From the NCBI GenBank assembly GCA_003222675.1, contig QHWT01000047.1:62069-126068 (forward strand): a DNA stretch of 64,000 bases, given 5' to 3'. Positions within the stretch are counted from its first letter, which is position 1. Each line of letters begins with the position of its first letter. This DNA is from Acidobacteriota bacterium (GTDB lineage: Bacteria > Acidobacteriota > Vicinamibacteria > Vicinamibacterales > 2-12-FULL-66-21). Position numbers and translations under genes: made by a program. The notes beneath the pieces are model-generated. The model did no database searches and was not told where the DNA came from. It was given only the letters and a program-made list of their open reading frames with translations. Shown here in pieces: positions 2,448 to 50,641 of the stretch.

Positions 2448-3017
2448 TCAGTCCTGCCGCGCCCGGTCGCGGTCCGCCTGGAGGTTCGCCACGAATTCTT
2501 CCGGCGTGAGCTGCAGCGGCTCGTAGACCTTCGGCGTCATCGAGATCTGGACGGGGTAATCCTTGCGCGCCGGGAACCCCTCCCAGTCGTCCGGCATGAG
2601 CAGCCGCCGCATATCCGGGTGTCCGTCGAACTCGATGCCGAAGAGATCCCACACCTCACGCTCCGCCCAGTTCATCGCCGGCCATACACCCGACAGCGTC
2701 GGCAGCCGCGGATCGTTGCCCGGCACCCGGACCTTGACGCGCAGGCGCTTCGCCGTGTCGCCGAACCCCGGCACGCCGAGCGACGCCATGTGGAGCACCA
2801 CCTCGAAGCGCGGCTCGCGCGGCAGGTAGTCGACCGCCGTCATGTCGGGGACGAACGCAAAGCGGAGCGACGGCGTGTCGCGCAGCGCGCGACAGACGTC
2901 GACGAGGTGTTCACGCGCGATGTAGATGGCGGGCATGCCGTCAGCGGCGGGCGCCGGTTCGACCGATCCGTCGGGGATGGCGCCTCTGAGCGCTTCGATG
3001 ATGGCGTTCGTGTCCAT
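2448..3017 (-). CDS. nuoC: NADH-quinone oxidoreductase subunit C
   Basis: 189-aa ORF; NWAEREVWDLFGIEFDGHPDMRRLLMPDDWEGFPARKDYP. Confidence 0.95.
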   Translation of the reverse strand: MDTNAIIEALRGAIPDGSVEPAPAADGMPAIYIAREHLVDVCRALRDTPSLRFAFVPDMTAVDYLPREPRFEVVLHMASLGVPGFGDTAKRLRVKVRVPGNDPRLPTLSGVWPAMNWAEREVWDLFGIEFDGHPDMRRLLMPDDWEGFPARKDYPVQISMTPKVYEPLQLTPEEFVANLQADRDRARQD

Positions 3018-3112
3018 AGGCTTCAGGCTTCAGGCTTCAGGCTTCGGAGGCCTCGGGCTGCCGGGCCCCGGCCTGGACGGCCCTGAAGCCTGGAGCCTGA
3101 CGCCCGAGCCGT
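3018..3112. repeat. Palindromic word-repeat element, unit CTTCAGG / CCTGAAG
   Basis: CTTCAGGCTTCAGGCTTCAGGCTTCGG ... GGCCCTGAAGCCTGGAGCCTGACG between nuoC and nuoB. Confidence 0.85.
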
Positions 3113-4027: not shown

Positions 4028-5519
4028 ATGCGAGTAGCGTGGTTCAGTCCAGTGCCGCCCGTGCGTTCGGGAATCGCGGGACGGAGTGCTGAGCTTATCG
4101 AAGCGCTCCGACAGCGTGGAACCGCGATCGATGTGTATGTGGAGTCGCCGCCGCTGGTGCGAGCTCGGACAGCAGCAGCTTCGGTGGACCATGTCGCCGC
4201 GGTGCCGATCCGCGATGTGCACTCCGCGCACGATTTCGTCTGGCGACATCGGCAGCACCCGTACGATCTGACGGTCTTCCAGTTCGGCAATTCGTCGCAC
4301 CACGACTATGTGTGGCCGTATGCATTGAGGTATCCCGGCCTGGTCGTCTTGCACGACACGCATCTGCACCATGCGCGCGCGGCACTGCTGCTGCGCGAGA
4401 AGCGCGTGGCGGAGTATCGCGCCGAGTTCACCTGGAACCACCCGCACGCAAGCCCCGATCTCGCGGAAATTGCGATCGCCGGTTTCGACAGCTCCCTCTA
4501 TTACGAATGGCCGATGGTGCGGGCGCTCGTCGAGACGTCACGGGTGGTGGCGGTGCACGGCGAGGGAGCACGGACCGAACTCCTTCAATCGCTCAATCAC
4601 CACATCACGAAATCAGCAGATCAGATCGTGTCCATCCGCCTGGGTGAAGGTGAAGTGCTGAGCGATGAGGCGGCCGAAGCATCACGGCACCGCGTGCGCG
4701 GCGCGCTTGGACTTGCGGACGATACGATCGTCTTCGGTATTTTCGGGGGATTGACTCCGGAGAAGCGCATCCCCCAGGCGCTCGCCGCGCTCAAAGCCGT
4801 GCTGCCGCACGCGCCCGACGCGCGGCTGCTGCTCGCAGGAGCGCCTGCCGATCACTATGATGTCCGTGCCGACATCGCCGCGCAGGGCATCGAGAATCGC
4901 GTCGTCATCACCGGTTACCTTGCGCCGGACGCGCGAAACCTCCGGACCCTGGCTCCGTGCTCTCGCCGCAGCCCGCGCGACGGTCATCACGGATCTCGTC
5001 CACCACGCGGACGTCCCGTCGCTCGATCCGAGGACGTGGGGGGTGAATGTCTGCGGGACGCGGAACGCGGGACGCGGGGCGCGAGGAGAAAACGAAGTCG
5101 CAAATCCATCCATCAGCGCCTCACCAGCGCGGGATTCCGCATCCCGCACCCCGCACCCGGATTCCGCATCCCGCACCCCACACCCCGCATCCCGACTGGC
5201 AGAACGCGAAGCGGTCAGCGTAGCGATCGACATCCTCGACGAAGATCACTCGCTGCGCCTGGCGATGCGGCGGCTCGCGACCGATGCCGGCCTGCGGGCG
5301 GCGCTGGGGCGCGCGGCACGGGCGTGGTGGCAGCGTGAGCATTCAGTCGAGGCGATGGTGGATGACTATCTGTGGGCGATGGCGCGCGCGGTCGAACAGA
5401 CTGCGCCGCGCATCGAGGTACCGGCCCATCTGCGCGATGACGGCGATCGCGCGCTGCGGGAACTGATCGAGCCGTTCGCCGTCGCGCCGGCGCTCTCCAG
5501 CGACCGCCTTCTGAGGTAG
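4028..5519 (+). pseudogene. GT4-like glycosyltransferase split across two frames (probable deletion/frameshift near 4925-4950)
   Basis: N-terminal frame MRVAWFSPVPPVRSGIAGRSAELI...VVITGYLAPDA; C-terminal frame ETSGPWLRALAAARATVITDLVHHADVPSLDPRTW...VSVAIDILDEDHSLRLAMRRLATDA. Confidence 0.75.
5041..5207. repeat. Palindromic word-repeat element inside glycosyltransferase ORF, unit CGCATCCCGCACCC / GCGGGACGCGGAAC
   Basis: GCGGGACGCGGAACGCGGGACGCGGGGCGCGAGG ... GGATTCCGCATCCCGCACCCCGCACCCGGATTCCGCATCCCGCACCCCACACCCCGCATCCCG. Confidence 0.85.
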
Positions 5520-5723: not shown

Positions 5724-5800
5724 TCTTTTCACTCAGAGGGCACGGAGGCCACTGAGTTGTTGTTATTGTTCTTGTTTTCCGTGGCCTCGGCGGCCTCTGA
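5724..5800. repeat. Palindromic element between thiS and thiG
   Basis: TCACTCAGAGGGCACGGAGGCCACTGAG ... CCGTGGCCTCGGCGGCCTCTGAGTGA. Confidence 0.85.
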
Positions 5801-6604
5801 GTGAAGCGTATGACTCCCGATCCCTTCGTAATCTCCGGCCGCACCTTCACCTCCCGTCTCCTCATCGGCACCGGCAAGTACCCGTCGCATCAAATCATGG
5901 CGGCGGCGCACGAGGCATCGGGAGCCGAGGTGGTCACCGTCGCGGTGCGCCGCGTCAACATCACGGACCGCAGCAAGGAATCGCTGCTGGACCACATCGA
6001 TCGGACGCGCTATTTCGTTCTGCCGAACACCGCTGCCTGCTATACCGCGGAAGACGCCATCCGTACAGCGCGGCTCGCGCGCGAGGCGGGACTGTCGCAT
6101 TGGGTCAAACTCGAAGTGATCGGCGACGAGAAGACGTTGTTTCCCGACAACGAAGCGCTCCTCGAGGCGACGCGCGTGCTCGTGAAGGAAGGCTTCGTCG
6201 TGCTGCCCTACACCAACGACGATCCGGTAGTGTGCCGCAAGCTCGAAGACGCTGGCGCCGCGGCCGTCATGCCGCTCGGCGCGCCGATCGGGTCCGGCCT
6301 CGGGATCCAGAATCCGAACAATATCCGGATCATCAGGGAGCAAGCGGGCGTCCCCGTGATTGTCGACGCGGGGGTCGGTACGGCGTCCGACGCGACAGTC
6401 GCGATGGAGCTTGGCGCGGACGCCGTGCTGATGAATACCGCGATCGCGCTCGCCCGGGATCCGGTCGCGATGGCGCACGCGATGCGCCTCGGCGTCGAAG
6501 CCGGCCGCCTCGCGTATCGCGCAGGGCGCATTGCGCGCAAAGCGTACGCGTCGGCGAGCAGTCCGCTGGATGGGACGATCGCGCCGGCGGTGGCGCGCGC
6601 GTGA
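5801..6604 (+). CDS. thiG: Thiazole synthase
   Basis: 267-aa [61 protein letters not shown]. Confidence 0.96.
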
Positions 6605-50394: not shown

Positions 50395-50641
50395 AGAGGG
50401 TTCTTCCAGGTTCCACGGGTTCCACAGGTTCTCGAGTTCTGGTTCCCGGCGTTCTAGCGTTCTAGGTTCCACGTCGTTCTACGTTCCACGCGTTCTAGGT
50501 TCCATAAAGCGTTCCCGGTTCACCATAGGCGTTCTCGGTTTCACGGTCCAGAACAACTGGAACCCAGAGCAGCTGGAACCCAGAACACTTGGAATCAGAA
50601 CGATTGGAACCTGAGGAACCCGGGAACTCTGGGAACCCTGT
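50395..50641. repeat. Large palindromic word-repeat element, unit GTTCCAcg/GTTCTAgg versus GGAACCcaga
   Basis: ~145 nt of GTTCC/GTTCT words followed by ~95 nt of GGAACC/AGAAC words, reverse-complementary at the word level. Confidence 0.9.

Follow-up and report, generated by a model that had tools for sequence, protein, structure and literature searches.

REP sequences and REPINs are dispersed hairpins whose sequence is specific to a lineage, and REPs are not known to contain 7-nt arrays. The GGGNATC heptameric repeats of Xanthomonas and Nostoc are also dispersed, being 89–93% intergenic in Xanthomonas, where many of them form convergent inverted pairs, and their length varies between relatives (Rehm et al. 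2015, PMC4692102). The TAACTGA heptamer repeats of Beggiatoaceae are direct 7-nt repeats, mostly intergenic, whose stop content limits their presence in genes (PMC4679880). Slippage has been proposed to explain the 7-nt preference (cited in PMC4692102 and PMC4679880). Rickettsia palindromic elements (RPE) represent palindromic DNA of similar size situated in frame in unrelated genes (PMC10969869), and in nematomorph mitochondria inverted repeats are retained within translated genes (PMC6649704).

Here, we analyzed a 64,000-nt stretch of acidobacterial DNA (the window) bearing a heptamer array within a glycosyltransferase (GT) gene, along with arrays of this kind in the source genome (G000) and its relatives. 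Their closest known kind is the heptameric inverted repeats of Xanthomonas, while in effect they are RPE-like. As in Xanthomonas, the units are 7 nt long and in tandem, convergent inverted pairs are formed, and the location is mostly intergenic (13 of 110 elements were flagged as intragenic vs. 71% of random positions, gene context being called approximately from codon usage). Unlike in Xanthomonas, GGGNATC is not the word at the GT site, which is GCGGGRY/CCCGCAY; GGGATTC-type words are found in a relative (G016). Moreover, Xanthomonas and Nostoc have one word type, whereas the acidobacterial arrays have many, changing between genera, and also reside in frame within conserved enzymes, where they recur at the same loops. 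With the Beggiatoaceae repeats they share the 7-nt unit, the mostly intergenic location and the relevance of stop content in genes, but the former are direct repeats of a single word with hardly any inverted pairs. The comparison with RPE, drawn in an earlier note on this DNA, suits the in-frame palindromic units in UvrC, RimO, MetH, a helicase and other unrelated genes but not the GT gene that the note cited, which as a whole is frame-broken upstream of the element. In addition, RPE have a family consensus and an encoded peptide, whereas the acidobacterial copies share the 7-nt word alone, and this varies between genera. In the nematomorph case, both arms encode conserved protein, while the arms described here are low-complexity additions, and unlike REP/REPIN with RAYT, the acidobacterial arrays do not appear to require the Y1 transposase (PF01797). 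No report of such arrays in acidobacteria was found in the open-access literature. The apparently new feature is that, across an order, arrays of differing words have repeatedly come to lie in frame at the same loops of conserved enzymes.

The GT gene and its array comprise the following features:

4028–4934, plus strand: N-terminal part of the GT, in the frame of ORF 4028–5338 (ortholog search and alignment)
4918–4936, plus strand: junction of a frame-shifting deletion of ~62 nt (approximate), the CDVxxNLRWPTA segment being gone (25 nt here vs. 84–87 nt in orthologs)
4935–5519, plus strand: C-terminal part of the GT, from ETSGPW to the stop, with the element in a linker, in the frame of ORF 4857–5519 (ortholog alignment)
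5053–5083, plus strand: 5′ arm, a G-rich heptamer array, (GCGGGAC)x4.4 (Tandem Repeats Finder and inverted-repeat scan)
5084–5131, strand not given: inter-arm spacer without period-7 signal (sequence, masking)
5132–5194, plus strand: 3′ arm, a C-rich heptamer array of CCCGCAY-type words with a 27-nt tandem x2, ending in ...GCATCCCG (repeat and inverted-repeat scans)

Within the 3′ arm, the C-rich period-7 array proper spans 5137–5194 and the two 27-nt tandem copies 5132–5185, and the terminus ...GCATCCCG is common to many copies of the class. The two arms are 85–93% complementary over 14–20 nt. The period-7 identity of 0.51 at 5040–5215 (p = 0.0005) and the folding z of −4.25 both exceeded the expectation from codon shuffles, thus bearing out the description of the segment as a palindromic word-repeat element with a G-rich and a C-rich arm.

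Alignment with orthologs, the nearest of which show 63% protein identity, supported an enlarged linker. The distance from RTW to VSVAIDIL is 58 aa in the window (in the frame of ORF 4857–5519) but 9 aa in G008, 10 aa in G005, 14–21 aa in others and 26 aa in G010, so that every parsed ortholog has a shorter linker; therefore, the element and the enlargement are real. The G010 ortholog also has a C-rich heptamer array at this place, while the linkers of 9–21 aa are devoid of arrays. The flanks SLDPRTW and VSVAIDIL had been taken for adjacent core sequence, which does not hold, because in the parsed orthologs a variable linker of 9–26 aa separates them. As judged from these alignments, the element sits in a variable, unconserved linker, enlarged here when compared to element-poor orthologs. 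The in-frame location can be upheld only locally: ORF 4857–5519 is open across the element, but the N-terminal part of the gene lies in ORF 4028–5338. From the start of TGYL to the codon before (T/V/I)SG.W there are 84–87 nt in the parsed family orthologs and 25 nt in the window, so that about 59–62 nt, not a multiple of 3, are missing near 4930, including the conserved CDVxxNLRWPTA motif, and the frame is shifted. This upstream deletion is separate from the element. The GT in the present assembly is probably a pseudogene, an assembly error being a possible source of the frame break, and because of the deletion it is a poor example of a functional in-frame insertion. Nor does the open frame itself carry weight as evidence: three of the six frames are open across the element vs. 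1.9 in shuffles and 2.7 in genome windows, and we rejected it as a sign of selection. None of this implies a dedicated function of the element in the GT.

The GT element is one of many. In a sample of 1.264 Mb of the source genome (a draft of 152 contigs), we counted 133 strong repeats with a period of 7, as well as harmonics at 14, 21 and 28, vs. 0–17 for periods other than multiples of 7; most sampled contigs were picked for holding the CCCGCACCCCGCACC word, so the array densities may be somewhat high. The words are numerous, e.g., GGTTCAC, CCTCGGA, CCCGCAC, AGCTGGA, AACTGGC and CTGAAGC. About nine convincing in-frame intragenic sites remained after inspection by eye, which discarded opposite-strand or unconvincing flags. 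They lie in genes for the GT, UvrC, RimO, a NagA-like deacetylase, an ArnT-like transferase, an EgtB/SUMF1-like protein, an AddA/UvrD-like helicase (two sites) and, less certainly, a HAD-like protein; MetH and a DEAD/DEAH-type helicase, both outside the sample, also carry arrays. The names UvrC, RimO and MetH come from matches to solved structures, the others from reading the sequences. The two in-frame arrays of the AddA/UvrD-like gene (L043, G000:C25, about 62796 and 63596) have different words, CCCGCAC and CCCTCGG. The intragenic words are mostly GCGGGRY and CCTCGGA, which contain no stop codon on either strand. Most same-strand arrays that change the frame begin at the stop codon of the upstream gene and seem to be intergenic, while in at least three cases (C152:32620, C60:226394, C61:81039) the upstream frame runs through the element. 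Many intergenic arrays of the sample start within a few bases of the stop codon of the upstream gene, which may thus be provided by the repeat. The arm order is fixed for each word family in G000 (30 of 30 pairs), and the copies show a preferred terminal phase, such as ...CCCG. A general rule of the G-rich arm coming first was rejected, as the CCAGCT and CCAGTT words run opposite and G018 has the reverse order for AACTGG. Several arrays have one arm only. What the copies share is the 7-nt word; a common spacer body was sought, and slight, edge-like similarity was all that was found.

From genus to genus, a given site is occupied by different words. Between YRKFRI and DDFASM, UvrC has a loop of 4–5 residues in solved homologs and of 6–7 in the parsed genomes outside the order; in relatives, this loop measures 24–243 nt and is often a heptamer array with a word varying by genus: CGAGGGT in G010, GGGATTC in G016, GGGGCTA in G029, GGGAGTC in G027, GGGATCA in G023, GGGCTTC in G012 and GGCTCGT in G008. 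With G000 excluded, the pooled period-7 identity of this loop was 0.468 vs. 0.307 ± 0.009 in codon shuffles, and several UvrC inserts had a folding z below −3. In the uvrC of G009 (L130), the reading frame ends soon after a heptamer array located in this loop, which may reflect disruption of the gene by the array or a fault in the contig. The same pattern is seen in the intergenic rpoA-rplQ spacer, which has a period-7 identity of 0.422 vs. 0.272 ± 0.012 (22 of 30 genomes parsed). In MetH, the stretch up to GERTN has 81 residues in G000 vs. 54–55 in most relatives, or, by a slightly shorter measure, 52–55 residues in 63 of 68 other species; one close named relative is labelled subdivision 6 (gp6). 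AlphaFold models of the C-terminal half of UvrC and of RimO from G000 combined a confident core with an insert in the form of a low-confidence coil, although the gapping of the alignments at the insert lowers the confidence by itself. Since arrays lie repeatedly in frame in the same core-enzyme loops across an acidobacterial order, hairpin DNA that encodes protein may be commoner than has been assumed. The order thus offers a natural system where hairpin-forming 7-nt repeats enter conserved genes repeatedly at identifiable loops, and where ortholog comparison makes testable the dominance of heptamers in bacterial tandem repeats, the origin of paired inverted arrays and the birth of disordered segments.

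The RimO genes of G000, G003, G008, G009 and G010 bear on the origin of the arrays. In each, an array is followed by a host segment (P[VL]TF-like) and then by a complementary array, with an own word each. The left and right arms matched better within a genome (mean score 21) than between genomes (10; p = 0.017 over 120 pairings), the arm ends being set by eye and G000 and G009 having a common word class. The conserved host codons between the arms argue against a single transposed cassette and favour growth in situ with arm-to-arm copying; since, in addition, the copies share little beyond the word, in-situ growth is no less likely than the transposition of a unit.

Taken together, the anatomy, the period-7 excess, the longer linker, the other in-frame copies and the differing words observed at the same sites incline us to regard the GT segment as belonging to a class of heptameric inverted arrays that is spread over the genome and whose members arise in situ, here within a separately broken GT gene. 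The class would consist of two complementary arrays of a 7-nt word flanking a spacer and capable of forming a hairpin. Polymerase slippage would expand short 7-nt repeats, and hairpin-dependent template switching, in which one arm is copied from the other, would create and maintain the complementary array, such that arrays may arise repeatedly at tolerant sites. Within genes they would survive only where the total length keeps the frame, the word is free of stops and the encoded product forms a disordered loop. The period-7 excess, the genus-specific words in the UvrC loop and the rpoA-rplQ spacer, the RimO arms, the dissimilar spacers, the stop-free intragenic words and the coil predicted for the UvrC and RimO inserts support this reading; the fixed arm order and the terminal phase, both explained more simply by the copying of a unit, stand against it, and therefore we hold the slippage/template-switching mechanism with moderate confidence only. 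Indeed, these two features, along with the dispersal of copies across unrelated genes and spacers and the existence of element-free orthologs, are what a mobile palindromic unit (RPE-, MITE- or REPIN-like) copied in the genome and sometimes inserted in frame, as in the GT, would leave. We nevertheless find such a unit rather doubtful in view of the RimO host codons, the change of word at the same site between genera and the hardly shared spacers. Furthermore, PF01797, which is present in G000, was not detected in the array-bearing draft genomes G003 and G029 (93–97% complete), and dependence on Y1/RAYT was not supported.

Maintenance of the arrays for a role in nucleic acids (an RNA or DNA hairpin, G-quadruplex, terminator or processing site), the genic copies being by-products, would agree with the low folding z of the GT element and several UvrC inserts, with the many intergenic arrays beginning at an upstream stop codon, and with the G-quadruplexes formed in vitro by the Xanthomonas heptamers (PMC4692102). 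However, stable folding follows from complementary arms anyway, one-armed arrays exist and the target genes belong to no common class, which makes such a role quite improbable. An artefact of assembly or binning, which the draft state of the assembly and the broken GT frame might suggest, is very hard to reconcile with the recurrence of such arrays across many independent genomes and in conserved genes. Least credible of all is a native, conserved low-complexity part of the GT: the linker does vary in length and G010 has a C-rich heptamer array there too, but the other parsed orthologs have array-free linkers, and the same word class recurs in unrelated genes and spacers. Beyond the in-situ origin that we prefer, one may speculate, though we think it unlikely, that heptameric inverted arrays are actively generated in the order, either by a dedicated enzyme or through a replication habit, which repeatedly writes hairpins with new words into the same loops and spacers; if so, it would make new disordered segments in conserved enzymes.

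The window bears further repeats. At 3014–3100, AGGCTTC is repeated four times (3018–3045), with a complementary stretch downstream, and an array of the GTTCTAG/GTTCCA type at 50407–50640 has mixed periods. A 28-nt inverted repeat (TTCACTCAGAGGGCACGGAGGCCACTGA...) at 5728–5805, which separates the thiS-like from the thiG-like gene, is without a period-7 array and probably belongs to another hairpin class.
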